From Thermoplasmatota archaeon (GTDB lineage: Archaea; Thermoplasmatota; E2; DHVEG-1), in NCBI GenBank assembly GCA_016930995.1, contig JAFGFQ010000157.1:1-26815 (forward strand): a DNA stretch of 26,815 nt, in the 5' to 3' direction. The position numbers and the translations under genes were made by a program. Shown here piece by piece: positions 5,191 through 25,282 of this stretch; position 1 is the first letter of the stretch, and each line of letters opens with the position of its first letter. Below the pieces are notes generated by a model. The model was given only the letters and a program-made list of their open reading frames with translations. It was not told where the DNA came from and ran no database searches.

Positions 5191-5192
5191 CG

Positions 5193-6477: not shown

Positions 6478-8475
6478 TCAAGAGCTTAGAATAAGACGAA
6501 GTATGGGGAAAGCACGAGGAAATCGTGATAGTAGTGCATGAAACATGTCAAAGAATGTGAAATGCGACTGATAAGGGGTTGTCATGGTGATTGGCACGGT
6601 ATCGTAATCGCTGCTGTTCTGGGTATTCACGACAGTAATCTGCCCGTTGAAGTCACTGCTTTTCTTTTTTGGGGCGACGAGGGATACGCTGATTATTACT
6701 GGCGCATCTTCTGGTGTTAAACCAGTTCCTTCTGTTGGTGAGAAGGTCCAGGTTCCCCAGTCTGGCCAGTCAGAGATTTCCCAGCTGAGGTTTGAATGCG
6801 CTGCACCGATGTTTTCAACAGTGAACTCTCCTAGAAGGGTCGATCCAGGTTTAACATCAGTCCAGGAAAAAGACCCATTGCACGAGACTTTCTCATGAAT
6901 TTTAATTGATGTTTGAAGAGTAACTGGAATGATATCATAATCAGTACTGTTTTCTCTGTTTACCACTTTTATTTGTCCTGTAAAGAGATGGTTTTCTATG
7001 TTTGGTACGACAACTTCCACGTTTATAGTTTCTAGCCCATCTTCTGGTTTAAGATTGTTCCCATCTGACGGGGTACATGTCCATTCTCCCCAGCTTGGCC
7101 AGTCGATTATCTCCCAGTCAAGATATGAGCCCGCTTCCCCGATGTTACGTACGGTAAAACTACTCGTAACAGTTACGTTTGGTGTAACATTAATCCATTC
7201 AAGTTCCCCATCACAAGTAAGATCGGGAACCGCTGTATTTTTGAGGATGTCAACAATAACTCCTTCAATAACTGTTAAACTATAGGGGAGTTCATCAGGG
7301 ATAAGGTACCAACCGTTGTAGGAGCCGCCCCATCCAAAATTGATATGATAAAAATCATTGGTGTTGTATCCATCGACGACAACATTATGTCCAGCAGTCC
7401 ATTGTTCGTTGACGATAGCGAGGTGAGCAGGTATTGCATCCTTCATATTATTGAGTAATCTATCATAGAGCTCGGGGTCGTTTTCATCCAAGAGTTCAAT
7501 CGTTGTACAACCAAATCGTTGATAGGCATCATAGGCTTGGTTCACACCAAACGTTCCTGAACCTCCCGATGCATATACTTGTGTCGCAGCAACACCACAG
7601 GCGAAGGTGATCGCTGCTTTGTCATCATTTGTAAGGGGAATTTGGTTCATATAATGGGATTGCAGAGTAGACAAATACGTATTTAACATTGGAAACGTTG
7701 GGAAACCATAGGTTGTATAATCATTGTCAATCCAATATTGGTTTCCACCGTAGTTATGGTAGTAGTCATCGGTATTATCAAAAGTAACGTTCATCGTCGT
7801 GTTATGGTAGTTGAATATTTGTGCCATCGCAACCGCGGGGCATCCCGCGACACTTCGTGACCCTCCATGAGAAATGTCAAGAGGACAAAAATTATTGTAA
7901 GGTGCGTTTTGATTCCAGTTCGTTAGAAGCCATCCCCCTGTCGGTGTCGTTCCCTCAGGAGGCCATTGTTCGAATCTGCTTGTATCAATTGGATTTCCTT
8001 TAAGGTAGGAGTCCCATTGAAGGTGTCGCTCTTCAAGGATATTATCTGGAACAAGTTGAATATTTTTTAAACGGAATGTTACATCAGCGTAGAGCAGGTC
8101 AAAGAGAGGGTTTCGGTTAGTATCATCCAGATAGTTATTGGTAAATGAATACGCGATCACTGGCGGAAGATCGAAAGATCCAGTAACAATGAGATATCCT
8201 TGTGGATGTAATTCAAATACGTAGAAGAGTGGTTTTTGTTTTTCATCGTTAATCTGTTGCGAGTGGTGGATTGAGAAATCTTTTTTGTTAAGTTCGCAAA
8301 GTTTTGTTATTGCGACTGTCGTTGCTATGTTAATAGTTATTGATGTTGTTTTATTTTTCTTGTCTGATGCGATTCTTGTTTCGTTCCCGTATATCGTTGG
8401 AATAAATATTGCTAGGAGAAGTATTGTTAATGTAATAAATACTCCTGTTTTTTTTGTATGACTTGCTCGTAACAT
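6478..8475 (-). CDS. Secreted cysteine peptidase, family C10 (streptopain type), with two Ig-like domains
   Basis: 665 residues. A signal peptide (1-30) is followed by a propeptide-like region to about 175, then the protease domain. NWNQNAPYNNFCP leads into GCPAVAMAQIFNYH with the likely nucleophile Cys212. GHNVVVDGY carries the likely catalytic His363, and HINFGWGGSYNGWY supplies the conserved Trp382. All are C10 landmarks. Two similar Ig-like domains follow (about 421-522 and 532-633), then a 25-residue tail with RFPRAFPILR. C10 enzymes are best known as secreted bacterial proteases, so an archaeal copy suggests extracellular protein breakdown. The tail matches that of the C25 peptidase at 20691-22868. 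GGGG at 8485-8488 serves the start. Confidence 0.9.
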   Translation of the reverse strand: MLRASHTKKTGVFITLTILLLAIFIPTIYGNETRIASDKKNKTTSITINIATTVAITKLCELNKKDFSIHHSQQINDEKQKPLFYVFELHPQGYLIVTGSFDLPPVIAYSFTNNYLDDTNRNPLFDLLYADVTFRLKNIQLVPDNILEERHLQWDSYLKGNPIDTSRFEQWPPEGTTPTGGWLLTNWNQNAPYNNFCPLDISHGGSRSVAGCPAVAMAQIFNYHNTTMNVTFDNTDDYYHNYGGNQYWIDNDYTTYGFPTFPMLNTYLSTLQSHYMNQIPLTNDDKAAITFACGVAATQVYASGGSGTFGVNQAYDAYQRFGCTTIELLDENDPELYDRLLNNMKDAIPAHLAIVNEQWTAGHNVVVDGYNTNDFYHINFGWGGSYNGWYLIPDELPYSLTVIEGVIVDILKNTAVPDLTCDGELEWINVTPNVTVTSSFTVRNIGEAGSYLDWEIIDWPSWGEWTCTPSDGNNLKPEDGLETINVEVVVPNIENHLFTGQIKVVNRENSTDYDIIPVTLQTSIKIHEKVSCNGSFSWTDVKPGSTLLGEFTVENIGAAHSNLSWEISDWPDWGTWTFSPTEGTGLTPEDAPVIISVSLVAPKKKSSDFNGQITVVNTQNSSDYDTVPITMTTPYQSHFTFFDMFHALLSRFPRAFPILRLILSS
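6577..7215 (-). repeat. Tandem duplicated Ig-like domain inside the C10 peptidase
   Basis: Two units of about 102 codons, 111 codons apart (coding bases about 7215-6910 and 6882-6577). Shared landmarks in order are FTV.NIG, WEI.DWP.WG.WT, a PEDxxxxI segment, G.I.VVN..NS.DYD and VP.T/IPVT. Similarity is clear in protein and partial in DNA (for example CCCAG-TGGCCAGTC blocks), so the duplication is not recent. Such domains usually act as spacers or binding modules on secreted enzymes. Confidence 0.8.
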
Positions 8476-8484
8476 TGATTTAAT

Positions 8485-8523
8485 CCCCTTAAAGAATATT
8501 GTATCTACCTTGTGGTATATAAA
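8485..8523 (-). promoter_or_regulatory. Promoter and ribosome site of the C10 peptidase
   Basis: The minus strand carries TTTATATA (plus 8516-8523), predicting a start near 8494. GGGG (plus 8485-8488) lies 9 bases before the ATG at 8475. The short leader with a ribosome site matches the C25 peptidase, which also has a GGGG site. Confidence 0.5.
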
Positions 8524-8553
8524 TATTAATAAAAATAGGGGAACCCTGATGTG

Positions 8554-11514
8554 TTAGCACATACGTTTGATTTCTTCCAGGACATCCTGGAGTTTGGTGA
8601 CGATATCGTTTTCAGAGAATCGTCTGAATTTCCATCCGTTCTTATTGAATTGTGTTCTATCAAGATTTTTTTGTTCATTGTGTAGTTGAATCACATAACG
8701 ATTATTATTGACAAAGAGTACAAAATCAGCAAGAACTGTTGGAGTCGCCTGGAGAAGATAATTCGTTAGAACTGGAAGACCATCCTTTTTTAACGCTTCA
8801 TAAAGAATCTGTTTCGCTGGTGAATCCAATGATTCCTTGTGTACCTTTGTCATTTCAACATAGTCTGATAGATTCTTTAGTGGACCAGTTGAGTGACCAC
8901 AGACATCTTGGTCTCCTACAACAATAAAGAGACTCCGTGCCCTGGTGACTGCAACGTTTAACAATTGGTTTGTTGTCTGTATCCAGTGAAGAGTCCCTGG
9001 TTTTACACCTTCAGAGACTGCTGGTGAAAAGAGAATAATATCCTTTTCATCACCTTGGAATCGATGAGCGGTCCCTATTGTTATCTCGCAATCAAAGAGA
9101 TCTTGAAATTTCTGTAATTTTTCTGTGATTATCTCTGTTTGTGCACGAAAAAGAGTAACAATCCCAATGGATGCGTGCACCGATGAGACAAGCTCAAGAA
9201 TTCGTAATGTTTCTTCAACCACTCGTTCTGCTTCGACTTCGTTATACGGGCTTTTTGAATGGATTGTTTTTCCTTTCACATGCTGCCACAGGATTCTTCT
9301 TTGAAGGGTCGGATGGTGAAGGAGTCTTGTTTCATCGGTCGAGATTGTGAGTTTTTTTTCATAATAATATTCATTTGAAAAGGAGACAATATCAGGATGA
9401 CATCGATAATGTTCGTTTAGAAGTAACGGTGTATCGTTGTTTTTCTTTGTAATTTTTTCCGCAAAATCATACAAAGAATTTTTTGTATACGATGATTCTT
9501 TGTAGAGATCTTCATCAATATTATTTTTTTCTGCAAGCTCTTTATCATGTTGTTCTGGAATAAGAGAAATGTGTCTGAGTTGATAGGGGTCTCCGATGAT
9601 CACTACATGATTCGCGCGATAAAAAAGAGGGAGCGCAGAAACAATATCACATTGAGATGCCTCGTCGATAATAAGTATATCAAAGATACAATTTTTCAAC
9701 GGAAAACTTTGCTTTGCTGAAAGATTAGTTACAACCCATACGGGGAGGATTTTCAGGATCTGCTGTAGCATCCGTATTCGCTGTGTTTGTAGTTGTTTAT
9801 ACTGTGATTGACTCCCTTTCCATGATTCAAGTTGTTCGGAGAGAGAGAAATAGGTGACGATGTGTTGCTTCTCCTTGTCTTGCGCCTCAGCAAAAATATT
9901 AATCCAATGATCTTTAAAGACTATTTGTGAGATTGTCCTATAGTCATTATGGTATACGGTAAGCTTGTTTTTTAGGATGGTGTATGGAGGGATGGTCAGC
10001 AGTGTTGTTCTTAGTTTTTGTAATTCCTCTAATGCAAGTTGTTTTTTCCTCCATGAAAGAATCCATTGTAATATGGTTTCTCTGGTTATGTTCTCGTTAC
10101 TTATTTTATTTTGAAGATACTCTTTGAGGTGGTGAGGCAAAACGTCATAGTATTTCCTAAAAAAACGTTCTTGTTTTTTCTTTTGGCGTTCTGGATAGAC
10201 GGTATGCAGAATCGATCGTTTGCTAAAAATTTTTTTTAAATCTTCTTGGAATACGACCGGGTCGATTGTCTGTAGTTTCATCTGATTTGTCTTTAGAGCT
10301 TTGTCGTTTGGATACTCTTCTTGTAGTATATCAATGATGGATTGTAGGGAGTCTATTGATTCATTCAGCAAGGTTAGCTGCATGATTTGTTCCTGGACGT
10401 TTTGTATTTGAGATATGAGGGGAACCAAATCATGGTGTGTTTTTTGTTTTGATGGGGGTTTTTGTATAGGTTGTTTAATGAGCTGTTCTAGTTGCGATTT
10501 TGCATTTCTTCGATGCGCTTGATGGCCCATACGGACCAGTAATGTGTATGGGAGAATCATGTTTAACTTCTGAATAACCACATCGACTGCTTTGTTGTTT
10601 TTACTTGCGAAAAGAATAGTCTTGTTGCGATACACCGCGTTTGCAATGATATTAAGGACAACTTGTGATTTTCCTGTGCCGGGGGGTCCAGTGATGACGG
10701 TGAGTGGTTGTTCAAGGGAACGTTGTACTGCGTTTTCTTGAGCGTTGTTCAATGAAAAAATTTCTAACAGAGGGTGGATAGATGGTTTTGTTTTTTCTGT
10801 TGGATACTGATTGGTGAGAAGCAGAAAAAGAGAGGTAGATGCAAGAGTATCGATTGGTTTGTTTTTCAGCTGCAATAGTTCCGTGATAAGGTTATGAGTG
10901 ATGTCCATGTGTTGTCCAAAATACAGGATGGCTTTGTTCACAAGTTTTTGGGTGATGGTTCGCTTAAATGGTTTTTCATCGAGGGTTGCCGAGCAATCTG
11001 TATAACGAAAGTGAAGTATTTTACAAACAGATGCAAGAGCTGAAGCAAAGTCTTCTTCTTCAATTTCCTGTCGAAATTGTGTGATTTCTTCAGGAGAATA
11101 CTTTTGTTGTGAAAGGATGTAGTGGTTCAACTTCAGATGTGTTGATAGGTTTGTGAAAACACAGGTATCGCCGTTGTCTTCGTAGTGTAGTTCGATGTAA
11201 AACAATGGGCTAATCGCTCCTTCAGGGCCTATGATCACAGGATATCCATAAAATAGTGTGTTGTTGTTCTGCCGAAGCAAAGAGGTCTGAAAAAACTTTT
11301 TTACGTCGTCTGCGTTCTTTATTGACACCTTTTTGTTGTTTGTATGGAACAACATTTCCGTTTGGAAGAGGGTGGACAAGAACGCGGTACCTTCCGAGGA
11401 GACATTGAAGGTGACAGACAGCATATCTTCGTATTTGAGGCAAGCGATGTAGTAGTCAAGAAGATTGCTGAAGGTTTTCCCAGACATTTGCTTCGGCATT
11501 GTCCTCCCAGACAT
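8554..11514 (-). CDS. SF1 (Upf1/Dna2-like) helicase with C-terminal endonuclease-like domain
   Basis: 986 residues. Helicase motifs are complete: Walker A GPPGTGKS (276-283), DEAS (617-620), GDPYQLRH (641-648), EHYRCHP (701-707), GTAHRFQGDE (814-823) and VAVTRAR (854-860). This order and DEAS indicate the AAA_11/AAA_12 type of superfamily 1B. A long helical insert (about 340-590) separates motifs I and II. Residues about 893-986 begin SPAKQILYEAL and include ADFVLF, VIQLH and a GWKFRRFSENDI end, the layout of Vsr/DUF559-type restriction-endonuclease folds. Asp930 could be catalytic, but the expected Glu is Gln943. The roughly 250-residue N-terminal domain is unrecognised. Possible roles are DNA repair or phage defence. 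Starts at 11514, 11499 or 11487 are possible. Confidence 0.85.
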   Translation of the reverse strand: MSGRTMPKQMSGKTFSNLLDYYIACLKYEDMLSVTFNVSSEGTAFLSTLFQTEMLFHTNNKKVSIKNADDVKKFFQTSLLRQNNNTLFYGYPVIIGPEGAISPLFYIELHYEDNGDTCVFTNLSTHLKLNHYILSQQKYSPEEITQFRQEIEEEDFASALASVCKILHFRYTDCSATLDEKPFKRTITQKLVNKAILYFGQHMDITHNLITELLQLKNKPIDTLASTSLFLLLTNQYPTEKTKPSIHPLLEIFSLNNAQENAVQRSLEQPLTVITGPPGTGKSQVVLNIIANAVYRNKTILFASKNNKAVDVVIQKLNMILPYTLLVRMGHQAHRRNAKSQLEQLIKQPIQKPPSKQKTHHDLVPLISQIQNVQEQIMQLTLLNESIDSLQSIIDILQEEYPNDKALKTNQMKLQTIDPVVFQEDLKKIFSKRSILHTVYPERQKKKQERFFRKYYDVLPHHLKEYLQNKISNENITRETILQWILSWRKKQLALEELQKLRTTLLTIPPYTILKNKLTVYHNDYRTISQIVFKDHWINIFAEAQDKEKQHIVTYFSLSEQLESWKGSQSQYKQLQTQRIRMLQQILKILPVWVVTNLSAKQSFPLKNCIFDILIIDEASQCDIVSALPLFYRANHVVIIGDPYQLRHISLIPEQHDKELAEKNNIDEDLYKESSYTKNSLYDFAEKITKKNNDTPLLLNEHYRCHPDIVSFSNEYYYEKKLTISTDETRLLHHPTLQRRILWQHVKGKTIHSKSPYNEVEAERVVEETLRILELVSSVHASIGIVTLFRAQTEIITEKLQKFQDLFDCEITIGTAHRFQGDEKDIILFSPAVSEGVKPGTLHWIQTTNQLLNVAVTRARSLFIVVGDQDVCGHSTGPLKNLSDYVEMTKVHKESLDSPAKQILYEALKKDGLPVLTNYLLQATPTVLADFVLFVNNNRYVIQLHNEQKNLDRTQFNKNGWKFRRFSENDIVTKLQDVLEEIKRMC

Positions 11515-11580
11515 ATGCGTTCATCGGAGGTTGTTGCCTCCCCCGTTGAACGGAGGAGTAATCATATAACAGTATATAAA
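11503..11580 (-). promoter_or_regulatory. Switch-like leader and TATA box of the helicase gene
   Basis: The minus strand has TTTATATA (plus 11573-11580), predicting a start near 11550. The leader carries four blocks in order: A, CTCCTCCG (plus 11551-11558); B, CGGGGGAGG (11537-11545); C, CCTCCG (11525-11530); D, GGGAGG (11503-11508), a ribosome site before the second ATG at 11499. A pairs with B over 8 bp (one GU) with a 5-base loop. B can instead pair with C, and C can pair with D. The A/B inverted repeat at the start site could also be a protein operator. Confidence 0.4.
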
Positions 11581-11630
11581 TCTATTTTTTTTATTAAAAT
11601 ATAAACATATATATAGAAGGATGAAAAATT

Positions 11631-13442
11631 TTAGATTTCTTTGAGCAATCCGCCCTTAATTGCCCATTCATAGAGGTTTCGGTTGTGATCGCCGATGTAG
11701 ATTTCTTCACCGATGCTATGTTTCTTCTTTATTGTCCATATAGTAAATCCTTTCATGACCTTATATTTAATTAATCTGGATGAAGAGAGATACGCAAGAT
11801 TTCTGTCGGTGTAATCAGTTAGCTCTTTTTGTCGTTGTAAACGAAACATCGAATAGTTCCCTGAATATACTTTAATATCCGCCTCGGTCATGTAAAAAAT
11901 TGTATCTGTGACTGTATCAAGAAATCTTCTGTCATGGGAAATAACAATCACCGTGCCAGAATACGAATTCAACGCGATTTCGATAGCATTTTTTGATTCG
12001 ATGTCCATGTGGTTTGTCGGTTCATCTAACAAAAGGAAGTTATAGGGTTCCATAAGAAGTCGGAGAAAAGCAAGACGAGCTCGTTCTCCGCCAGAGAGTT
12101 GACCGACCTTATTTTGGATTGTTTGACCTTTGAAATGAAATTGACCTAAGAGGGCTTTGGCATCTTCCTCGCTGAGGTCAATATGATCTCGGAGGGTTTC
12201 TTCGAGAAGCGTGCTCTCAAGATGTAATGAGAGGTGCCCTTGGTCGAAATATCCTGCTTTTACTCCTTGACTTATAGAGAGTTTTCCGTGTGTTAGCGGT
12301 TCTGTTCTTGTTAGCATTTTCAGGAATGTTGTTTTTCCACAACCATTTGAGCCGATAAGACCGATTTTTTGTCCGGCAAGTATCTCAAAGTTGACATTAG
12401 AAAGGATTTGTTTTTCCTTAAAATTTTTTGTAATGTTGGTTCCATCTGCGATGTTTTTTCCTGATTTTAATACAGTTTTGAAATGGAACCGAAAAAGATA
12501 ATTTTTCAGAACCGGATTTTCCACTCGTTTAATTTTTTCCAGTTGTTTCATGCGGCTGTTGATTTGGTTGGTGTAGCGGTTTTTCCGAGTGAGTCGTTTA
12601 ATGACTGCAAGTTGTCGCTTCATCTCGAGGGATGCTTTTTGATACTCTTGTTTTTTAATATGTTCCCGAATCTTTCTCTGTTCTTCGTATTCCTCATAAG
12701 TTCCATCATATAGCTCAAGGTGTGAGCCCTGGAATTCAAAGATCCGATCTACGAGATCGGTGAGTAGGTACTGGTCATGGGATATAATCATAACCGCGCA
12801 GGAGAGATCAGCGATTTTTTGTTCAAGCCATTCGATCGTTTCGATATCAAGATGGTTGGTTGGTTCATCAAGAAGAAGTAGATCGCAGTTTTGTGGTTGA
12901 GTAAGGATTGCTGCAAGAGCCATTTTTTGACGTTCTCCACCAGAGAACTGTTGTATTGTCATGTCCTCTGTGATTAGAGGGAGTTTGAGCTCTTCAAGGA
13001 GATGCTGAGCGGCTTCGAGTTGGGCAGAACCGCTTCTTTTATTCATCATGATTTGTAATGCTTTGATTTGATCAAGGATTTCTTGATGCTGGGATGATTC
13101 GTAAATCGCTGGGTCTTCTAACTTTGCCTCTAATTTATGTAATTGCATTTGTAGTTGTTCCGTATGTGATGTTCGTGAGAAAAAATCACCAATGGTCCGG
13201 TCAGAACGATGTACCGGGTCCTGTTCCAGAATTCGGAGAATCAATCCTTCTTTTTTTTGTATCTCTCCGTTTGTAGGTCGTTCTCTTTCAAGGATGATGT
13301 TGAAAAGTGTTGTTTTCCCACATCCGTTTGGTCCGAGAAGTCCAATGCAGTCATCTGCGTAGATTTCAAAGGAGGTATTGTCGAAGAGTTCTTTGCTTGC
13401 GATGGTTTTGCTTAGCGCAGAAACATGTAGAATTGGTTCCAT
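11631..13442 (-). CDS. ABC-F family ATPase with atypical C-terminal extension
   Basis: 603 residues with two ABC domains and no membrane segments. Domain 1 has GPNGCGKT (37-44), FSGGE (166-170) and LLLDEPTNHLD. Domain 2 has GSNGCGKT (364-371), LSGGE (449-453) and LLLDEPTNHMD. A charged linker (about 245-310) joins them, as in ABC-F proteins, which act at the ribosome in translation or antibiotic resistance rather than in transport. After a short coiled end, residues about 557-603 form an extra module (KGFTIWTIKKKHSIGEEIYIGDHNRNL...) that I do not know from bacterial Uup, EttA or YkpA. It is probably leaderless: the ATG at 13442 is about 30 bases from a TATA-like site. The subfamily is not assigned. 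Confidence 0.9.
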   Translation of the reverse strand: MEPILHVSALSKTIASKELFDNTSFEIYADDCIGLLGPNGCGKTTLFNIILERERPTNGEIQKKEGLILRILEQDPVHRSDRTIGDFFSRTSHTEQLQMQLHKLEAKLEDPAIYESSQHQEILDQIKALQIMMNKRSGSAQLEAAQHLLEELKLPLITEDMTIQQFSGGERQKMALAAILTQPQNCDLLLLDEPTNHLDIETIEWLEQKIADLSCAVMIISHDQYLLTDLVDRIFEFQGSHLELYDGTYEEYEEQRKIREHIKKQEYQKASLEMKRQLAVIKRLTRKNRYTNQINSRMKQLEKIKRVENPVLKNYLFRFHFKTVLKSGKNIADGTNITKNFKEKQILSNVNFEILAGQKIGLIGSNGCGKTTFLKMLTRTEPLTHGKLSISQGVKAGYFDQGHLSLHLESTLLEETLRDHIDLSEEDAKALLGQFHFKGQTIQNKVGQLSGGERARLAFLRLLMEPYNFLLLDEPTNHMDIESKNAIEIALNSYSGTVIVISHDRRFLDTVTDTIFYMTEADIKVYSGNYSMFRLQRQKELTDYTDRNLAYLSSSRLIKYKVMKGFTIWTIKKKHSIGEEIYIGDHNRNLYEWAIKGGLLKEI

Positions 13443-13468
13443 ATGTCAAGGGTGAATAGGGTTCTGAG

Positions 13469-13476
13469 GTATATGG
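13469..13476 (-). promoter_or_regulatory. TATA-like element of the ABC-F gene
   Basis: CCATATAC on the minus strand lies 27-34 bases upstream of the ATG at 13442, within the 54-base gap after the transporter gene. Spacing suits a leaderless transcript, but read-through from the transporter gene is equally possible. Confidence 0.3.
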
Positions 13477-13496
13477 TTTTAGGTGGCGGTTTTTTA

Positions 13497-14876: not shown

Positions 14877-14899
14877 TTTATGCTGTTATCTCTGGCTCA

Positions 14900-14910
14900 T
14901 TTTAAAAGGT
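14900..14910 (-). promoter_or_regulatory. TATA box of the ArsB/NhaD-type transporter
   Basis: The minus strand reads ACCTTTTAAAA here, 24-34 bases before the ATG at 14876. It is one half of a divergent promoter region shared with the gene at 15049. Confidence 0.45.
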
Positions 14911-14988
14911 TTTAGTGACTTTTATTAACATTTGTTTATGAAATTTTTTTCGCCTCCTGAGATTTCTCCTTATAGTTTTTTATAGAAA

Positions 14989-15041
14989 TTTATATATATA
15001 TAGCAAGTATTATGTACACCATCAAAAACTACAACTGGAGG
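14989..15041 (+). promoter_or_regulatory. Promoter and ribosome site of the FN3 surface protein
   Basis: An AT-alternating TATA stretch at 14989-15001 predicts a start near 15020. GGAGG at 15037-15041 is a full Shine-Dalgarno site 7 bases before the ATG at 15049, which fixes that start. Confidence 0.6.
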
Positions 15042-15048
15042 AATTTAG

Positions 15049-16512
15049 ATGAGTATGAATAGTAGAAAAATGAATAATTATTCATTAATGCGCGTGAGTA
15101 CAACTTTTATTCTCACATTCGCCCTGGTGGTTTCAACAGTTGCCATTCCTTTGGGGGCTCAAACAAGTGCACAACCTCTTGAGAATAATCCACCAAATGT
15201 TCCAAGTAACCCAGACCCTGAAAATAATTCGATGAATGTCAACATTTCAGTCCTGCTGAAATGGTCTTGTGATGATCCTGATGGCGATCCACTGACGTAT
15301 AATGTATATTTTGGGTCGACAAGTCCGCCAGAGCTTGTTTCAGAGAACCAGACAAATGCTTCTTACGAACCGGAAACCTTAGAGTATGCGACCCCCTACT
15401 ACTGGATGATTACTGCTTGGGATAATCAAAGCGCATCAACGCAAGGACCTGAATGGACATTTACCACGGAAGCAGGTGAAAATCAACCACCCTATGTTCC
15501 CAGTACACCAGCGCCAAGTAACAATTCAATAAACATGTCTGTGTATTCAACGCTTAACTGGAATGGTGGTGATCCTGATGAGGGGGATGTGGTGGTCTAT
15601 GATGTATATCTAGGAACTACGACCAACCCTTTAAAGAAGGCTGAAAATCTATCGGATGATAGCTATGATCCTCCTGAACCGCTTTCATATGGAACACTCT
15701 ATTACTGGAGGATTGTTGCGCGAGACAATCACGGAGCAGAGACCACAGGGCCTCTCTGGCATTTCACCACAAAAGAAAATGGGGGGAATACCACAAATAT
15801 CACCGTGACTTTTGTCAAACCACGAACCGGTAAATTGTACTTCAATGATAATGAAATAGGAATCAGTTTACCACGGAACACCATTGTGTATGGGAAGATT
15901 ACGATTACTATCAACGTAACATCAGATTCCGAGATAATTGATGTCAAGTTTTTTGTTGATGATAAACCAATTAGCGATGAAGATAGCGATAGTAATCCGT
16001 ACACCTGTCTATGGCAGCCGATTATCCAGTTTAATTCCGCTCTTTCCTTGAAACGGAATCTCCGGGTTGTGGTAACGGATTCTGAAAACAAGACCGCTAA
16101 CGCTACACTGGACATTACGAAATGGCGGTTCCATATCCTTCCCTTTGTTATCGCTGGCGCTGCATTCGCCTCTCGGCTTGTTCTGCATACCACAGTAACC
16201 GGTGTGTTCCTCAACTTTAGGGAATCACGGTTCAGTGTATCGTTCTATGCGCTTCGAGCCCATTATAAGACCATAGGTCCGTTCAAGACACAACGGGGAG
16301 TCCTCAACTTCAAGAAATGCACCGGAGGCATGTTGATTGGCCCGACCTCAACGACCCGGCTAGGTCTTTTCCATAAGTTCATGATTGGTTCATTCACCTT
16401 TATCGGGAATATCCATACCAATAGGTTGGGGCTTGGTCAAGCGCTTATTTCAGGGATTCTCGAGCGGCGTTTAAGTAGAGGAGACGGTTTGTCACGATTT
16501 CTACCATCGTGA
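15049..16512 (+). CDS. Secreted surface protein with two fibronectin type III-like domains
   Basis: 487 residues. A signal peptide (about 1-37, ending near GAQTSA) is followed by two FN3-like modules (about 47-141 and 145-242). Each opens with PxxPSxPxPxNNS and contains WxxxDPDxxD, Y.VY.G, YYW.I.A.D and W.FTT. A third Ig-like module (about 251-357) has VKFFVDDKP, as in modules that follow PKD or FN3 repeats. The last 130 residues begin FHILPFVIAGAAFAS and are basic, beta-rich and unrecognised; they lack a membrane anchor plus basic tail. Many sequons suggest glycosylation. A likely role is adhesion or cell-envelope structure. A stem-loop terminator follows at 16541. Confidence is good for the repeats and low for function. 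Confidence 0.75.
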   Translation: MSMNSRKMNNYSLMRVSTTFILTFALVVSTVAIPLGAQTSAQPLENNPPNVPSNPDPENNSMNVNISVLLKWSCDDPDGDPLTYNVYFGSTSPPELVSENQTNASYEPETLEYATPYYWMITAWDNQSASTQGPEWTFTTEAGENQPPYVPSTPAPSNNSINMSVYSTLNWNGGDPDEGDVVVYDVYLGTTTNPLKKAENLSDDSYDPPEPLSYGTLYYWRIVARDNHGAETTGPLWHFTTKENGGNTTNITVTFVKPRTGKLYFNDNEIGISLPRNTIVYGKITITINVTSDSEIIDVKFFVDDKPISDEDSDSNPYTCLWQPIIQFNSALSLKRNLRVVVTDSENKTANATLDITKWRFHILPFVIAGAAFASRLVLHTTVTGVFLNFRESRFSVSFYALRAHYKTIGPFKTQRGVLNFKKCTGGMLIGPTSTTRLGLFHKFMIGSFTFIGNIHTNRLGLGQALISGILERRLSRGDGLSRFLPS

Positions 16513-16540
16513 TGTTTCTTTCCAATCAATAAAATACCAT

Positions 16541-16578
16541 AAGAAAGGTGTCATCACCTTTTCTTAATTTTTTTATTT
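16541..16578 (+). terminator. Stem-loop terminator with T-run
   Basis: AAGAAAGGTG (16541-16550), the loop TCAT, then CACCTTTTCTT form a stem of about ten pairs with one bulge. A run of eight T and further T-rich sequence follows. It ends the FN3 protein transcript and separates it from the nitroreductase promoter. Confidence 0.7.
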
Positions 16579-16601
16579 GTTCTTCAGAGACGCATAGCAT
16601 C

Positions 16602-16644
16602 TTTTATAACAGTGCGTTAATATCCCCTTCGATAATAAATGAGG
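16602..16644 (+). promoter_or_regulatory. Promoter and ribosome site of the nitroreductase
   Basis: TTTTATAA at 16602-16609 predicts a start near 16633. GAGGG at about 16640-16644 lies 7 bases ahead of the ATG at 16652, so the leader is very short but carries a ribosome site. Confidence 0.45.
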
Positions 16645-16651
16645 GCGTCTC

Positions 16652-17194
16652 ATGGAGTTTATTGATGTAATCAAGGCTCGCAGTAGCGTTCGTGAATACA
16701 GTGATCGCCCAGTTGATGCTGAAACGATTTCCGCAGTTTTAGAGTGCGCGCGACTTGCTCCTTCATGGGCGAATAAACAGTGTTGGCGTTTTATCGTCAT
16801 TACTAATAAGGAAACAATTGAACACATTGCTAAGAGTAGTATCATTAACCGATGGTTGAAGACCGCACCGGTTCTCATCGTTGCATGTGCAGATCCTGCG
16901 GAGAGTGGTTCTCATAATTCCCTTGAATATTATTCTGTGGATGTTTCTATTGCCGTTGATCATTTAATTCTTGCAGCAACCGATCGTGGACTTGGGACCT
17001 GTTGGATTGCTGGATTTAATGAGGAGAAACTCAAGGAACTTTTGGAAATCCCAAAGCGGATACGGATTGTAGCACTCACACCACTAGGGTATCCAGCAGG
17101 CAAAAAAGGTATCGTTGAACAAATCACCAAGACGTTACTGAAAGCCAAGAAACGAAAAACACTTGATGAAATCGTCCACTATGAACAATGGTAA
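16652..17194 (+). CDS. Nitroreductase-family FMN oxidoreductase
   Basis: 180 residues, a normal single-domain length. The FMN-phosphate-binding start RSSVREY (about 11-17), APSWANKQCWRFIV (about 36-49) and GLGTCWIAGF (about 112-121) are family marks. A C-terminal PLGYPAGKK segment, also typical, closes the fold. Such enzymes are usually dimeric FMN proteins that reduce nitro groups, quinones or enones with NAD(P)H; the substrate here is unknown. The gene has its own promoter and a stem-loop terminator upstream. It is followed at 60 bases by the DMT exporter with a separate TATA-like site, so a joint transcript is not required. Confidence 0.9.
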   Translation: MEFIDVIKARSSVREYSDRPVDAETISAVLECARLAPSWANKQCWRFIVITNKETIEHIAKSSIINRWLKTAPVLIVACADPAESGSHNSLEYYSVDVSIAVDHLILAATDRGLGTCWIAGFNEEKLKELLEIPKRIRIVALTPLGYPAGKKGIVEQITKTLLKAKKRKTLDEIVHYEQW

Positions 17195-17254
17195 CTTTTT
17201 TCCATGATTTTAAATAACTGATGAGTCTTCCCCCTCTTGATGCGTGCTTAAGAG

Positions 17255-18169
17255 ATGACACCACTATCAGTTGAGAAAAAATCTTTCTATGTTATTATAC
17301 TTCTTCCGATTATTTTCTGGGCTTTTGCATTTCCCTTCATTAAAATTGGTTTGCAGGAGCTTAGTCCAGTGAATCTGACAATTCTGCGTCTTTTCCTCGT
17401 CTGTGGTGTCTTTTTATTTCTCATGGTGATTATGCCACGGAAGTTTACACCATTAAAAAAAAAGGATCTATTACCGTTGTTTTTCCTTGGATTCTTTGGA
17501 GTGGTTGTCTATCATCTCGGGTTGAATTATGGAGAGTTGTATATCTCTGCGTCGGCCGCAAGCTTAATCATCGCATCCATCCCAGTGTTCACCGTGATTT
17601 TCGCAGCGCTTCTTCTCAAGGAAAAGTTAACAACAAAGATCGTGAGTGGTGTGGTACTATCACTTGGTGGGGTCATGATTATTTCTTTAACAGGGACCTC
17701 TTCAAACCCATTTGAGATAACCTATTTATCAGCGGCGGTAGCAGTATTCATCTCAGCTCTTGCCGGGGCTGGTTATACTATCGCTGGAAAAAAACTCCTC
17801 ACTCGCTACTCCGCATTGTCTCTGACGGTGTATGCTTTCCTTTTCGGTTCCTTAGGTCTTCTCCCATTTGTATCTTCTTCATTAGTTGAAGAGATCATCG
17901 AGCTATCCTTGAATGGATGGGGTGCCGTTCTCTTTTTAGCATTGTTCCCGACAGTTGTTGGGTACATCCTTTGGTATGTCGCCCTTGAGATAAAAACCGC
18001 CTCTGAGATAAGTGTTTTTTTATATTTTATTCCCGTCCTCTCCACAGTTATCAGTTTTTTCCTTTTTCAGGAACCAATCACCGTGTTGTTTCTTCTTGGC
18101 GGAGTACTTGTAATTGGAGGCCTTATTGTAGTACATATACAAAAAACCTCATCGGTTCAGAAATCATAA
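17255..18169 (+). CDS. EamA/DMT-family transporter
   Basis: 304 residues and ten predicted membrane helices in two homologous EamA halves (about 10-140 and 155-297). Typical features are the opening PIIFWAFAFPFIKIGL, the helix-4 stretch YHLGLNYGELYISASAASLIIA split by small residues, and the second-half LALFPTVVGYILWYVALE. Members export amino acids, nucleosides or related small molecules; specificity cannot be read here. TTTTAAATA near 17208-17216 is a likely TATA box, leaving a leader of about 15-20 bases without a clear ribosome site. Confidence 0.9.
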   Translation: MTPLSVEKKSFYVIILLPIIFWAFAFPFIKIGLQELSPVNLTILRLFLVCGVFLFLMVIMPRKFTPLKKKDLLPLFFLGFFGVVVYHLGLNYGELYISASAASLIIASIPVFTVIFAALLLKEKLTTKIVSGVVLSLGGVMIISLTGTSSNPFEITYLSAAVAVFISALAGAGYTIAGKKLLTRYSALSLTVYAFLFGSLGLLPFVSSSLVEEIIELSLNGWGAVLFLALFPTVVGYILWYVALEIKTASEISVFLYFIPVLSTVISFFLFQEPITVLFLLGGVLVIGGLIVVHIQKTSSVQKS

Positions 18170-18269
18170 TCGATTTCTTTGTATTGTAGAGTATGTATCC
18201 CTTATTTTTTAGAACACACATAAATGGACATACCTTTTTATCCTTGTTTTCTTTCTCACATCTGGTTTT

Positions 18270-18977
18270 ATGATTTCTGTCTGCAATCTTACAAAGCGAT
18301 ATGGGAAAAAAACGGCGCTGAAGAATGTTTCTGTCGATTTCATTGATGGAAATGTTATCACCATCATGGGTGAAAACGGTGCAGGAAAAAGCACCTTGCT
18401 TAAAATTATTGCAGGTATCCTCCCTTTCGATACAGGGGTCATCACTATTGATTCTTTCTCTCTTCAGTCCCAGTCTCTTCAAGCACGAGAACGCCTCGGA
18501 TACCTTCCTGAGATGCCTGAATTATACGATCGGATCACTGGTCGGGAGTTCCTGTTCTATATCGCATCCTTACGAAAAATTGCTGACGCAGAGAAAACCA
18601 TCAATACTCTCTCCCGAACCATAGGGATCGATCAGGCATTAGATTATGAAATTGGTGGTTATTCAAAGGGTATGAAACAAAAAATATCACTTCTCTCTGC
18701 GATTATGCACCAACCACAGAACCTCCTTTTGGATGAACCAGTCTACGGTCTTGACCCGCTTGCATCACGGACTATCCAAGAGTTCATTAAAAAACGACAA
18801 GGAACCACGGTCATAGCGACTCATTCAACACAACTCGTTGAACTTGTCGCAGATTCTGTCTATTTCTTAATGAACGGCACTATTGTTATTCATGACAGCG
18901 TCAATAATTTGATGAAACAGCATGGGACTATTGAAAACGCCTATTTCCATTACAAATCCACCACTGAAGATCATTAA
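18270..18977 (+). CDS. ABC transporter ATP-binding protein, orphan
   Basis: 235 residues, one ABC domain. Walker A is GENGAGKS (34-41), the Q-loop region is GYLPEMPELYD (77-87), the signature is YSKGMKQ (131-137), Walker B is LLLDEP (152-157), and the switch histidine is in ATHS. The GYLPE.P.LY region is common in ATPases of ABC-2-type exporters. No permease is adjacent; the nearest is at 23742-25133, separated by 4.7 kb that includes an AT-rich island. The ATG is about 30 bases after a TTTTTATCC TATA-like site, so the message may be leaderless. Probable role: exporter or membrane-remodelling transporter, with substrate unknown. Confidence 0.9.
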   Translation: MISVCNLTKRYGKKTALKNVSVDFIDGNVITIMGENGAGKSTLLKIIAGILPFDTGVITIDSFSLQSQSLQARERLGYLPEMPELYDRITGREFLFYIASLRKIADAEKTINTLSRTIGIDQALDYEIGGYSKGMKQKISLLSAIMHQPQNLLLDEPVYGLDPLASRTIQEFIKKRQGTTVIATHSTQLVELVADSVYFLMNGTIVIHDSVNNLMKQHGTIENAYFHYKSTTEDH

Positions 18978-19070
18978 TCAATCACCAGCACAATAATGAG
19001 ATGTCCATTGAAATACACAGAAACCATCTTTTTATATTTTTAATTGACAAGTAGTTGGGAAGATAAAAAA

Positions 19071-19238
19071 ATGAGAAAGATTATCTATCCAACAGACGAA
19101 AAAAAGAAAGAAAGGTTATGTTATATTATACCACTGGACAAATATATGGATGGGGGGTTTCTGTTGGAGCTCTATCAATTTGAAATCCTATCAGAATGTA
19201 TGGTAAGAAGGAAATATAACTGTTTTTCCCCCATATAA
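19071..19238 (+). CDS. Short ORF, possibly the truncated 5' end of a gene
   Basis: ATG at 19071 follows a good TATA-like TTTATATT (19031-19038) at leaderless or near-leaderless spacing and opens 55 codons (MRKIIYPTDEKKKERLCYI...). Only the first 18 codons lie clear of the beta-helix gene on the other strand. A promoter plus a plausible basic N-terminus, then a frame running antisense into an AT-rich gene, fits a gene broken by insertion or deletion. No family is recognised, and chance cannot be excluded. Confidence 0.2.
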   Translation: MRKIIYPTDEKKKERLCYIIPLDKYMDGGFLLELYQFEILSECMVRRKYNCFSPI

Positions 19239-20124
19239 GATATATATGTTTCGATGAACCTTTATTCCAATAGTTACCATTCCACTCATTTTTCGATTGT
19301 AAAAATCTGATTTTTCCATAGTTATCATTATCATAAAAATTGTTGTTTTTAATGAAATTAGCTTGCTCAAAATTACCCACCAAATAAATGTTATATCCAC
19401 CTTCAACAGTTCTATCTCCATTATATGAAAGGTTATTTCTAGAAAATGTAATACCGCCAGAATGATATACTTCAATACCACTTAAATTATTATATTGAAT
19501 AAAATTATAATCAATAGTACAATTATTTGATTTTTCAATATACAAAGCTTCATCAATATTCCAACTAATGACATTTCTTTGAATAAGACAATATGCAGAT
19601 TTAATAAGATGGATGCCTCTTCCATTTGACGTAATTTTATTTTCATATAGTTCTACAAATTCTGAATATACAACCAGAATGCCCTCTCCATTACAATTGA
19701 TAATATCAAAATTAGATACATTTGTTCCGCTAGCCTCTTTTCCAATTATAATAATGCCTACTGCAGGATCACTAACTAATGGTCTATCTGTAGTATTCCC
19801 ATTTTGATCTTCATCACTCCCTACTAATGTTATTTTCTTATTAATGATAACATTCTCATTATAGGTTCCCTTGTATACTATCACAGTCCCACTTAAATGT
19901 ACTGCATCCACTCCTGCTTGTATTGTATTAAAATGATCATACCCCCAGCCGGGTGTACTCTCATTGTAATCATCATCTACATATGCGATATCTTGCAGTG
20001 AAAGCGGGATGATAGTTGTATCCCCTGATTCATTTATCCCAAGTGCAAAACTAGATATGTTACAAATCAACAGAAATGTGATTGTCGATTGCACTAACCT
20101 TTTCAGATTATCTGTCTTTTTCAT
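19126..20124 (-). CDS. Secreted right-handed beta-helix (NosD/pectate-lyase-like) surface protein
   Basis: 332 residues with a signal peptide (about 1-29). AYVDDDYNESTPGWGYDHFNTIQAGVDAV (about 48-76) is the standard opening of archaeal parallel beta-helix proteins. It is followed by repeats of the N.I..N..GI.L..S..C.I..N type through about residue 280. The end (WNGNYWN, then a WGKNSYI... FQIDRAPTETPHPY segment) resembles the usual C-terminus of such proteins, so it looks complete. It has no catalytic residues that I can assign; a carbohydrate-binding or surface role is more likely than lyase activity. TATA-like and GGAGG sequences lie upstream on the minus strand. Base composition is clearly more AT-rich than the neighbours, suggesting transfer. 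Confidence 0.75.
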   Translation of the reverse strand: MKKTDNLKRLVQSTITFLLICNISSFALGINESGDTTIIPLSLQDIAYVDDDYNESTPGWGYDHFNTIQAGVDAVHLSGTVIVYKGTYNENVIINKKITLVGSDEDQNGNTTDRPLVSDPAVGIIIIGKEASGTNVSNFDIINCNGEGILVVYSEFVELYENKITSNGRGIHLIKSAYCLIQRNVISWNIDEALYIEKSNNCTIDYNFIQYNNLSGIEVYHSGGITFSRNNLSYNGDRTVEGGYNIYLVGNFEQANFIKNNNFYDNDNYGKIRFLQSKNEWNGNYWNKGSSKHIYLIWGKNSYISFLPYILIGFQIDRAPTETPHPYICPVV

Positions 20125-20690
20125 TTTCCTTTGGCCTCCACTTATAAAATCACATAAGATTAGTTATCCTAATAAATTTATTTAAATGTTTTTAATTAAA
20201 TATTAACCAAACAAATATTGTGATAATTTTTTGTAACCACATGTTCAATATATGTTCGTGATATATTTTTCTCATAAAAATGCTTATAATATGAAGTTGG
20301 GAAGAAAGTTGGGGAATATTTTGTCTGGGTGTATAACGATAAATACAACTAATAAATACACTGTAGAGAAGTTTAAAGAGTATCTCTATCACAAAGAGAA
20401 TCGTTTTGCACAGAAGCAACTCCTGCCGGAAACAAGATGATGATAAATACAATAACATTCGGAAAAGAACTTTAAAATTTTTGGTAAAGATTCTCTTGCC
20501 GGATCCATTGTGTGCTGATAGAGGATATATTTCTTTCTTCGTCTTATGTTGTTTTTCGCTGCCACCTGATAAATTAAGGAGAATGATGTTTTTTTGTCGT
20601 AGATGGTATTTTTTATGAGGTACCTTTATATAGTCGCAAAAACAATATATATATGAACACTATTAGGTAAGAAAATAGGGGAAATAATCT
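20125..20690. other. AT-rich intergenic region with gene debris
   Basis: About 565 bases. Its left end holds the beta-helix gene promoter (TATA-like ATTTAAATAAATTTA and GGAGG on the minus strand). Its right end holds the C25 peptidase promoter. The middle has only short frames on both strands, such as 49 codons from an ATG at 20290 (MKLGRKLGNIL...) with no convincing promoter or ribosome site. I see no terminal inverted repeats, tRNA or structured RNA. It may be decayed coding sequence. Confidence 0.4.
20625..20681 (+). promoter_or_regulatory. Promoter and ribosome site of the C25 peptidase
   Basis: TTTATATA at 20625-20632 predicts a start near 20655, and a second AT-alternating stretch lies at 20644-20654. 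GGGG at 20678-20681 sits 9 bases before the ATG at 20691, the same arrangement as in the C10 peptidase. Confidence 0.5.
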
Positions 20691-22868
20691 ATGAAGAAAT
20701 TACTTCCGTTATGTATTATAGGAATAGTAGTCCTCAGTGGACTAGGGGCTGTCGCACAAACTACTTCAGAGTATCGAATTGAGACGACGATGCTTAATTT
20801 TTCGGAACCAAATGTTCAAACTAAGAACACGTATGCATCTGTTTTTTTACAAGAAGCAAATTCTTTTATCATGCAACAGGGCAAGCCACTGCTCCCTAGT
20901 TATATCGAAACATATACGTTTCCGTTTAAGACAATTATCAAGAGTGTTCTGGTAACGCCACGAGATATAACAATCAAGACCATTGTAAATAATGTCGAGC
21001 CAACTCCACGACAAGTGCTTGTTGGTGAGCCTGTTACAATAGCAAATGAAGAACAGATACAATACGGGGATGAACCATACCCCACAAGTTGGTTTACTTA
21101 CCGTGTTGGTTGTGGGCTTTATGATGGGACGCTTAGCACGATAGTGACTGTAGAGGTTTATCCGATTCAGTATCATCCAGCAGAGAAAATACTCAAAAGT
21201 GCAAAAGAAGCGACTGTCGTTATTGAATATACTACACCATCTCCGGAACCGGCATCAACCCGAGACAATTATCAACTTGTCGTGATAGGTCCTGCTGAGT
21301 TTAGCAGTCAAATCGCACCACTTATTACTCATAAAACAGGAGCGGGAATCACTTCACGGTTTGTCAGTTTAGAAGATATCTATGCAGGCACATACTTCCC
21401 TGCTACGGGGAGAGACAATCAAGAGAAGATAAAATACTTCATTAAAAATGCTATTGAAACCTGGCTTACCGGTAGTATATTATTGGTTGGAGGACAGCTG
21501 AAATTGCCAACAAGAACAACGCATGTATATATTGATGATGAGGAACCAAGCCCTGAGGTTTTTGTCAGTGATCTTTACTATGCAGATATCTACAATTCAA
21601 CCGGCGGGTTCTGCAGTTGGGATTCCAATGCAAATGATATCTTTGGGGAATATCAATGGGAAGGAAAAACCGATCAAGTCGATCTTCATCCGGACGTCTA
21701 TTTAGCACGGTTAGCTGCAACATCCACAAGTCAGGTCACGACATGTGTGAATAAAATTAAACAGTATGAGACTACACCAGGGTATCAACAGAGTTGGTTC
21801 CCGAAGGTGATTGCCATCGGCGGTGATTCCCATGAGGATGATGATGATATTGACGAAGGAGAATACACCAATCAGAAGGTTATCGATGTGATGACTGGTT
21901 TTGCCTCTGTTAAACTCTGGGTGACAAACGGGATGTTAACAGGTCTTGCCCCCACAGGTCTTGCCAACATTAAGGATTCCATTAACGATGGTGCTGGGTT
22001 TGTCGCTTTTAGCGGGCATGGGAATCCTCAAGCTTTTGCCACGCATCCGCATACGCAGTTTGCACTCTGGGTGCCTACGCCATTTGGGAACATTAAAAAC
22101 AGCGATGTTCAATCACTTACCAATGGAAATAAACTCCCCATTGTGACTGTTGAGGCATGCTCTACTTCGAAATTTAATTCTGATTCCAATTGTTTTAACT
22201 GGGCGTTTCTCTCTAATGCAAATGGTGGAGGTATTGGGAGTTTTGGAGCCACTGCATTAGGATGGGGATATGTTGGGACCGGTACAACTCAGGGTTTGAT
22301 TGGAAAAATGGGACTTGATACCTATAAGGCATACAAACTTGATAAAGCAACGACGTTTGGTGAGATGTGGACAAAGGCACTCAACCGATATATCAAACCA
22401 TCAATGCAGCCGACTGATTATAAAGTGGTAGAAGAATGGATAGCGTTTGGTGATCCAAGTCTTGCCATCGCTGAGGAATCACAGGCCCCAGCAAAACCAG
22501 CCACGCCCACGGGGACTACATCGGGAAACATCAAAACGGAATATGAGTATTCCTCTTCAACAACTGACCCTGATGGTGATAAGGTATCATACATGTTCGA
22601 CTGGGGCGATGGGACATTTAGCAGTTGGGTCGGTCCAGTAAATAGTGGCGTTCCTGCGTCAGCCAAAAAGACATGGACTGTGAAAGGGACCTATAGTATT
22701 AAGGTGGTCTCAAAGGATGAGCATGGTGTTTTGAGTGAATGGTCAGATCCGTTACCCGTAACGATGCCGCTGGCCTACGAGCCACCGTTTTTACGTCTCT
22801 TAGAAAAACTATTCGAGTGGTTCCCAAATGCGTTCCCACTGTTACGGCAGCTCTTAGGGTATAACTAG
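20691..22868 (+). CDS. Secreted cysteine peptidase, family C25 (gingipain type), with PKD-like domain
   Basis: 725 residues. A signal peptide (about 1-22) and a propeptide-like beta domain (about 25-185) precede the caspase-like C25 domain (about 190-585). FSGHGNPQAF gives the likely catalytic His443, and VTVEACSTSKF gives Cys490; LLVGGQ, a YYAD segment, LARLAATS and WIAFGDPSL are also characteristic. A PKD-like domain with DPDGDKVSYMFDWGDG lies at about 590-690. The last 28 residues form two amphipathic stretches around FPNAFPLLR, shared with the C10 peptidase. Bacterial gingipains leave through the type IX system using a much larger C-terminal domain, which is absent here. Likely role: extracellular protein degradation. 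A T-rich terminator follows. Confidence 0.9.
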   Translation: MKKLLPLCIIGIVVLSGLGAVAQTTSEYRIETTMLNFSEPNVQTKNTYASVFLQEANSFIMQQGKPLLPSYIETYTFPFKTIIKSVLVTPRDITIKTIVNNVEPTPRQVLVGEPVTIANEEQIQYGDEPYPTSWFTYRVGCGLYDGTLSTIVTVEVYPIQYHPAEKILKSAKEATVVIEYTTPSPEPASTRDNYQLVVIGPAEFSSQIAPLITHKTGAGITSRFVSLEDIYAGTYFPATGRDNQEKIKYFIKNAIETWLTGSILLVGGQLKLPTRTTHVYIDDEEPSPEVFVSDLYYADIYNSTGGFCSWDSNANDIFGEYQWEGKTDQVDLHPDVYLARLAATSTSQVTTCVNKIKQYETTPGYQQSWFPKVIAIGGDSHEDDDDIDEGEYTNQKVIDVMTGFASVKLWVTNGMLTGLAPTGLANIKDSINDGAGFVAFSGHGNPQAFATHPHTQFALWVPTPFGNIKNSDVQSLTNGNKLPIVTVEACSTSKFNSDSNCFNWAFLSNANGGGIGSFGATALGWGYVGTGTTQGLIGKMGLDTYKAYKLDKATTFGEMWTKALNRYIKPSMQPTDYKVVEEWIAFGDPSLAIAEESQAPAKPATPTGTTSGNIKTEYEYSSSTTDPDGDKVSYMFDWGDGTFSSWVGPVNSGVPASAKKTWTVKGTYSIKVVSKDEHGVLSEWSDPLPVTMPLAYEPPFLRLLEKLFEWFPNAFPLLRQLLGYN

Positions 22869-25133: not shown

Positions 25134-25237
25134 TAGAAATTTTTCATTGAAAAAGAAAAAAGACGTGTTGTATTATCCTAAACGCAAGGACGTATAGGTT
25201 CCTCATTCGTATTTTCGGTTGAACCAGGATGATAAAG

Positions 25238-25276
25238 TTTATATCTGGTCTGTGGTATCATTACATAGCGTGGAGG
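25238..25276 (+). promoter_or_regulatory. Promoter and ribosome site that fix the start of the small secreted protein
   Basis: TTTATAT at 25238-25244 predicts transcription from about 25265. GGAGG at 25272-25276 lies 6 bases before the ATG at 25283. An in-frame ATG at 25229 would precede the transcript start, so it is rejected. Confidence 0.6.
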
Positions 25277-25282
25277 AAACGT

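Follow-up and report, generated by a model that had tools for sequence, protein, structure and literature searches.

Short C-terminal tags mark the secreted proteins of several described sorting systems, and they provide the background for a tail of about 25 residues that we examine here in a Thermoplasmatota archaeon. The tail closes two cysteine peptidases, one of the C10 and one of the C25 family, encoded on contig JAFGFQ010000157.1 of GenBank assembly GCA_016930995.1; positions 1 to 26,815 of its forward strand, 26,815 nucleotides in all, were analysed and are called the window below. It is shared by unrelated proteins, stands at the C-terminus of secreted proteins, is conserved among orthologs, amphipathic and limited to one lineage, and is replaced by other endings in some relatives. 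We tentatively read it as a sorting signal that may retain secreted proteins of one archaeal order at the cell, a role suggested by comparison of sequences.

In the PEP-CTERM/exosortase system a short homology domain occurs on otherwise unrelated secreted proteins, in many copies per genome or in none (PMC1569441). The present tail is likewise found on unrelated secreted proteins in many copies or none, but it lacks the layout of motif, helix and basic end, and an enzyme partner was not found. MYXO-CTERM, defined by an invariant cysteine, a membrane helix, an arginine-rich end and a CPBP enzyme (PMC11980579), and GlyGly-CTERM are also described as lineage-limited C-terminal tags on many surface proteins. 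Unlike the former, the tail has neither a conserved cysteine nor a membrane helix, and CPBP enzymes of the myxosortase kind occur independently of it; unlike the latter, which combines a glycine-rich motif, a membrane helix and a basic end with a dedicated rhomboid (rhombosortase), it has no such motif or membrane helix, and rhomboids are present with or without tails. LPXTG signals differ in that sortase is missing from the genomes surveyed below. The nearest archaeal parallel is PGF-CTERM with archaeosortase A: many substrates per genome, a signal peptide with a conserved C-terminal segment, and a frequent position after PKD-type domains. PGF-type tails exist in the same genomes as the helical tail but look different: the helical tail shows no PGF in the alignments A2 and A9, has no membrane-spanning helix and no basic end, and the presence of archaeosortase does not follow that of the tail. 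Finally, the C-terminal domain of type IX secretion substrates stands at the end of bacterial C25 enzymes (gingipains) and is a folded beta-sandwich. The tail differs from it in being about 25 residues long, helical in both of our structure models (at low confidence) and without a folded beta-domain; with the NCBIfam PorU models, the C25 enzyme of the window stays far below cut-off. As in C-terminal sorting signals generally, carriers are secreted, the segment is C-terminal and there are many per genome, with one internal copy.

Scans of the window's two enzymes, three tails and two other proteins against Pfam and NCBIfam gave no convincing match over the tail; Pfam produced one at E=0.24. The strings FPNAFP, RFPNAF, HPHMFP and HPNLFP are absent from 5.39 million open-licence papers, and keyword searches turned up neither a mention of such a tail nor a published test of its location, cleavage or binding.

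Two unrelated peptidases with one C-terminal tail

The two enzymes and their parts are as follows.

6478..8475, minus strand: C10 (streptopain-type) cysteine peptidase, 665 amino acids, Pfam PF01640; signal peptide, I69 inhibitor-like pro-region, C10 domain, two beta-domains, tail
6481..6576, minus strand: C10 tail, residues 634-665 (stop codon 6478-6480); TP hinge, linker, helix 640-651, FPRAF break, helix 657-664, C-terminus
20691..22868, plus strand: C25 (gingipain-type) cysteine peptidase, 725 amino acids, Pfam PF01364; signal peptide, pro-domain, C25 domain, PKD domain, tail
22467..22739, plus strand: PKD region of the C25 enzyme, residues 593-683, resembling PDB 4XED
22767..22865, plus strand: C25 tail, residues 693-725 (stop codon 22866-22868); MP hinge, variable linker, helix 699-710, FPNA break, helix 715-721, GYN C-terminus

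The catalytic domains belong to the unrelated families PF01640 and PF01364, but the C-terminal ends, FTFFDMFHALLSRFPRAFPILRLILSS in the C10 and PPFLRLLEKLFEWFPNAFPLLRQLLGYN in the C25 enzyme, follow one plan. A proline closes the last beta-domain, a linker follows, and an amphipathic stretch containing FPxAFPxLRxxL leads to the stop codon, so that the common part of about 25 residues reads helix, FP-x-A-FP, helix, stop. Two residues separate the motif from the stop in the C10 and three in the C25 enzyme, within the two to four given in the first-pass annotation. That annotation had proposed that two unrelated peptidases share a tail here, and coordinates and Pfam families agree with it, as does a single whole-protein BLASTP comparison of the two, whose top alignment ends in the tails (34.3 bits, E=2e-5).

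Spread of the tail in one archaeal order

With the last 40 residues of the C25 enzyme as query, a search of 5.8 billion proteins returned a subtilase with the same ending (E=7e-7) and, weakly, an M14 carboxypeptidase whose tail is plain by eye (E=4.8, not significant alone). When the four tails (C10, C25, subtilase and M14) were aligned and the alignment was run against 84,980 species genomes without any requirement on position, 109 pattern matches and 70 confirmed loci resulted. Sixty-nine of these carry archaeal titles (Thermoplasmatales, Thermoplasmatota, Thermoplasmata, Euryarchaeota or uncultured archaeon). The sole non-archaeal title, locus L066, belongs to a Parcubacteria-labelled contig with the tail at its very start and is probably mis-binned archaeal DNA. 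Viral sequences yielded no relative: 43 pattern matches among 2.9 million viral contigs included none, and the best of nine matches in phage records had an E-value of about 1.

Position is as uniform as origin. The motif FPN[AT]F lies in a stop-terminated frame at 69 of the 70 loci; it starts exactly 14 residues before the C-terminus in 60 of these 69 and at most 25 residues before it in 68. A census of this kind excludes chance as the origin of the shared tail. At 59 of the loci the 5' end is complete and the protein has 120 residues or more; 53 of these 59 have a signal peptide.

Within the phylum, a 32-row tail alignment matches 33 of 292 genomes at E<=1e-4, with 25 to 70 matches each at E<=0.01 in ten genomes, and a broader 38-row alignment matches 39 at the former threshold, 38 of them among the 52 genomes of a single order, Marine Benthic Group D or Thermoprofundales. 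Inside this order 39 of 52 genomes match at E<=0.001; 22 have at least ten matches, one has 115 and 13 have none. The earlier suggestion of similar endings in other Thermoplasmata thus holds for most of an order, and the tail appears undescribed to the extent of Pfam, NCBIfam and the open-licence literature. The tail-bearing SM1-50, SG8-52-3 and 3300003432D are classed as Thermoprofundales, that is Marine Benthic Group D, in PMC6461988. Outside the order a single match was found in one of 240 sampled genomes; this genome (G230) gives it with both the A3 and the A9 alignment, and it may reflect transfer, contamination or a genome assigned to the wrong group. A second subtype, with HPxxFPLLR where the first has RFPNAFPILR, occurs at E<=1e-5 in 24 of the 292 genomes, for the most part those that also have the first. 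In P0103, and so in one or more of the C25 relatives, it takes the place of the first type, and the two subtypes therefore look interchangeable.

A census of one chromosome

A view of a whole genome comes from the bin50 chromosome (genome G003; 1,824,075 bases, of which 22,789 are N), for which a simple script called 1,705 genes. All 81 proteins matching at E<=1 do so within 20 residues of the C-terminus, as do 95 of 98 proteins C-terminally at E<=10; in a raw six-frame search, a few short and presumably non-coding frames match elsewhere, from E=0.46 upward. An iterated model of the C-termini finds 115 tailed proteins at E<=0.01, about 6.7% of the genes.

Tailed proteins are enriched in signal peptides: a heuristic detects one in 96 of 115, compared with 366 of 1182 non-tailed proteins of at least 140 amino acids. 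Among the 19 without, six contain runs of N, and in three of these a cytoplasmic-looking start is joined to a tailed end across the gap. Ten of the other 13 carriers were scanned and gave M14, NosD, Ig, a C10 fragment, PKD and LanC-like domains, with two lacking any match; none of the ten is clearly cytoplasmic, the LanC-like protein apart, which starts inside its domain. Equal occurrence in cytoplasmic proteins, which the first-pass annotation had named as evidence against a sorting signal, is therefore not what the genome contains: no clear cytoplasmic carrier was found, and the three joined cases are artefacts of N-runs. The starts so joined include a PurE-like and a reductase-like one, named by eye. 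Runs of about 100 N in G003 (L071-L162) fuse the frames of two genes, and automatic annotation would be misled by them.

The carriers are diverse. Pfam could be applied to 95 of the 115 tailed proteins (those within one fetched piece, free of N and inside the size limit) and found 63 families, the following among them.

PKD: 33
NosD beta-helix: 9
PQQ propeller: 6
C25: 5
arylsulfotransferase: 5
FG-GAP: 5
M14: 4
rhodanese: 4
C10: 2

S8 peptidases, M14 enzymes, beta-propellers, beta-helices and other unrelated secreted proteins bear the tail as well. Two nitroreductase and two SUKH-4 matches also fall in the tailed set, on carriers outside the ten scanned proteins; the window's own nitroreductase as query found no tailed bin50 protein.

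That enzymes and binding-type domains (PKD, FG-GAP, beta-propeller) share one tag, and that particular residues in it are conserved, is also what an assembly tag would produce, in which tails bind each other or a scaffold protein and build an enzyme complex at the surface. Dockerins in cellulosomes offer the comparison. The tail helices are of low confidence in monomer models, which cannot show partners. We regard this explanation as quite improbable.

Residue conservation and copying of DNA

Relatives of both enzymes were gathered as whole proteins, by words from the first 500 residues, and the best 120 of 1,174 (C25) and of 1,830 (C10) were compared. In the C25 set 106 of 120 carry the C-terminal tail at E<0.01, and P712 is kept in 112, F715 and P716 in 107, L718 in 105 and R719 in 96. 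In the C10 set the tail is present at E<0.01 in 101; by eye, 17 of the other 19 have a recognisable degenerate tail, the exceptions being P0211 and P0231. Here F656 is kept in 111, R651 in 103, P657 in 102, and P653 and R660 in 93. In both families the FP pairs enclose H or N after the first proline and then mostly A. The mean majority residue reaches 54% in the linker, 67% in the last 20 residues and 81% in the catalytic domain of C25, and 51%, 65% and 82% in C10, so that in relatives at about 52-80% identity the key residues are held while the linker drifts. Unrelated proteins holding the same residues at the same places speak for recognition by something specific.

A different origin of such uniformity has to be weighed, namely that recombination carried a short C-terminal cassette along with PKD and similar domains, and that this cassette has no function and is simply tolerated. 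Codon use bears on this directly. In four genomes the tails of different genes use the same codon at frequencies of 0.61-0.72 against 0.36-0.41 expected, which indicates that the module spread there as DNA, and the single internal copy would suit a tolerated cassette too. In bin50, however, codon sharing lies at expectation (0.527 vs 0.507, for tails chosen by FPxxFPxxR, which favours the finding of residues that persist with randomised codons), so the tail appears old in that genome. Divergence between loci was also estimated (nonsynonymous, dN, 0.17 and synonymous, dS, 1.02 in the tail; 0.41 and 1.59 in the body), but the tail motif itself had served to find the loci, which biases these values, and the C25 and C10 relatives were used instead. 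Their conservation across orthologs makes an absence of function very unlikely. The narrower proposal that only the two window enzymes share the tail, by recent domain exchange, fails on the 63 families; its copying component stands for four of five genomes and does not extend to bin50.

Physical form of the tail

Averaged over the 115 tails of bin50, the helical hydrophobic moment of the last 20 residues is 1.20, compared with 0.68 in shuffled sequences (sd 0.034, 200 shuffles) and 0.73 in non-tailed bin50 proteins; the beta-type moment is lower than in shuffles. Their mean hydropathy is 0.69, where the usual value for a membrane span is 1.6, and the last four residues hold 0.35 K/R on average. 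The tail is strongly amphipathic and too polar for a membrane span. These values, with the missing PGF motif, bear out the earlier distinction from archaeosortase substrates, and a helical tail of about 25 residues does the same for the distinction from type IX domains.

AlphaFold2 models agree on a pair of helices around a break, at low confidence. In C25 the helices span 699-710 and 715-721 with a predicted local distance difference test (pLDDT) score of 50-62, against a mean of 86.6 for the body; in C10 they span 640-651 and 657-664 with pLDDT about 49-65, in a model that is poor overall (mean of 63.8 in the catalytic domain). A fold search of the PDB with the C25 model matched gingipains and 4XED and is silent on the tail. 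The latter is the solved PKD domain of an M14-like peptidase from Thermoplasmatales archaeon SCGC AB-540-F20, a cell classed as Thermoprofundales in PMC6461988. It is of the same kind as the PKD domains of the tailed M14 protein P0003 and the window's C25 enzyme, but the chain ends at VTMPK, where the tail would begin, and says nothing about it.

Could the hairpin be a plain lipid anchor, lying in the outer face of the membrane without a receptor? Its strong moment at a hydrophobicity too small for a span would suit this, as would the basic residues ahead of the helix (PRxR or PKNK), which would touch lipid head groups: in the 115 bin50 rows, P is found in 95 of 95, R in 99 of 102 and a following K/R in 102 of 110 aligned tails. 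Many bin50 tails retain little beyond the amphipathic pattern, and none of the four partner families considered below was found to fit. Amphipathicity does not, on the other hand, require two prolines and an arginine to be held at 78-93% in two unrelated families, nor a fixed distance to the C-terminus, and the window's own tails are without the basic residues. Receptor-free anchoring thus seems unlikely, if worth keeping in view.

Search for a partner machine

Known sorting enzymes do not track the tail. The archaeosortase domain TIGR04178 is found in 20 of 24 tail-bearing and 32 of 38 other genomes, the latter nearly all from other orders. The tail-rich G003 has no archaeosortase match, but with its 22,789 N and eight PGF-like matches the enzyme may be hidden. 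Rhomboid, CPBP and sortase were surveyed in 27 genomes of the order, 14 tail-rich and 13 with none to two matches by A9. One rhomboid occurs in each of the 27; CPBP is present in 13 of 14 tail-rich and 12 of 13 tail-poor genomes, being absent from tail-rich G003 and tail-less G142; and sortase (PF04203) is found in 0 of 27 at E<=0.001. All four families were rejected as partners for want of correlation.

These results bear on the possibility that the tail is a processing signal, removed by an undescribed protease or transpeptidase that, in the manner of archaeosortase and myxosortase, attaches the protein to a lipid or to a polymer of the surface. Many copies per genome, signal peptides with a conserved C-terminal motif and a sharp lineage limit form the very profile through which PEP-CTERM was discovered, according to PMC1569441. 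What the tail lacks is a membrane-spanning helix and a basic cluster after the motif, and sortase is missing while rhomboid, CPBP and archaeosortase are present regardless of it. Processing is in our view an unlikely explanation.

Among the families shown for the neighbours of tailed genes (70 loci and the window), one multi-span family that looks like a real protein turns up repeatedly, at five loci in four genomes; its members carry a signal peptide, are about 288 amino acids long and have a median of three hydrophobic segments. The family includes L011 and has at least four bin50 relatives (g0147, g0384, g0918 and g0894). It is a poor candidate, having also one relative in the tail-less genome G216. 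No other neighbouring membrane protein stands out at these loci.

Exchange for other C-terminal ends

The tail can be replaced. In the C25 set 13 of 120 proteins lack the motif: four have degenerate tails, four other short ends, and five carry one of two different C-terminal beta-domains in its stead. A profile of the commoner beta-domain finds 19 bin50 proteins, none of them tailed. A secreted, tail-less protein of 161 amino acids in the window (25229-25714, plus strand) matches the same domain at E=4.6e-7.

Genome G216, tail-less by A9, was compared for its C-termini alone, over 731,700 of about 1.4 million bases, a coverage that leaves gene absence unjudged. This part holds five domain relatives of tailed bin50 proteins (28-38% identity), of which two close with PGF-type tails, one closes with a membrane helix and two have other ends. 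Together with the beta-domain replacements in C25, these ends suggest a pattern of choice among C-terminal fates, in which the tail would be one of several exchangeable endings besides PGF tails, membrane-helix anchors and at least two beta-domain endings. Two stricter forms of exchange were rejected. The tail does not replace PGF tails across genomes, as the counts are not inverse in the 52 genomes, and mutual exclusion with a lipobox is not significant in bin50.

Other features of the window

Beside the tailed enzymes the window encodes proteins with other ends. A Sarcinarray-family MAST protein (5187-5822, plus strand; TIGR04209 above cut-off) closes with a hydrophobic stretch and RRRRK, an archaeosortase-type end. 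Upstream, three open reading frames of 161, 448 and 890 amino acids stand in a row (612-5190, plus strand), the first two with hydrophobic segments near the N-terminus; possibly they form a pilin-like or secretion cluster. A NosD-like beta-helix protein (19126-20124, minus strand) ends in ...FQIDRAPTETPHPYICPVV, and several bin50 proteins close with a related motif, for example DWHPAKEPYDI, perhaps an additional C-terminal signal.

A candidate retention signal and its meaning

The first-pass annotation had seen in the tail a hint of a common export or surface-anchoring machine. A shared signal on secreted proteins is what we find; the machine is not, and no known sorting enzyme tracks the tail. 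Because N-terminal signal peptides already explain export, retention is likelier than export. We propose that the protein would be exported by its signal peptide, that the flexible linker beyond the last beta-domain would then present the amphipathic hairpin of helix, FP[HN][AM]FP and helix, and that this hairpin, its free C-terminus at a fixed distance, might dock non-covalently and uncleaved into the cell envelope. The docking site would most likely be a dedicated receptor or a surface-layer component at the membrane face, burying the hydrophobic side. Retention at the cell surface, docking rather than cleavage, and a receptor are what we infer from the sequences compared here.

Several observations weigh against this proposal. 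A receptor was sought through the four sorting-enzyme families and the neighbours of tailed genes, and none was found. Each of the 52 genomes in the order has between 1 and 17 PGF-type tails, independently of the tail count. The tail as a whole is less conserved than the catalytic domains of C10 and C25, copying of DNA explains part of its uniformity in four genomes, and many of the 115 bin50 tails are degenerate, which would also suit a merely physical role. Among 279 secreted-looking bin50 proteins, 190 have no tail and 89 do, and a lipobox is found in 5 of 89 tailed and 20 of 164 other proteins (p=0.12). One locus, L061 (bin14), carries the motif 172 residues before the C-terminus, in the order signal peptide, tail, another domain; it is the sole internal tail, so that mid-protein occurrence, which had been named beforehand as a possible refutation, amounts to a single case.

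If retention is right, the tail could, somewhat more speculatively, represent a new class of archaeal sorting signal, a cleavage-free, non-tripartite helical hairpin with its own receptor that arose in one order and that, in the one genome counted, about 7% of the genes carry, those of several protein-degrading exoenzymes included. As a marker that was found in neither Pfam nor NCBIfam, it flags hundreds of secreted proteins still without a name, and its profile of presence and absence (39 of 52 order genomes) lends itself to a search for the partner.

Marine Benthic Group D archaea are described as among the most frequent sediment archaea, encoding extracellular C25, C10, C11, C13 and other peptidases (PMC6461988); they are regarded as likely protein degraders, although one labelling study reports that they took up nothing from protein (PMC9123169). 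Who benefits from digestion depends on whether such enzymes remain on the cell or diffuse away, and a tail common to C25, C10, S8 and M14 enzymes points to digestion that may be bound to the cell.

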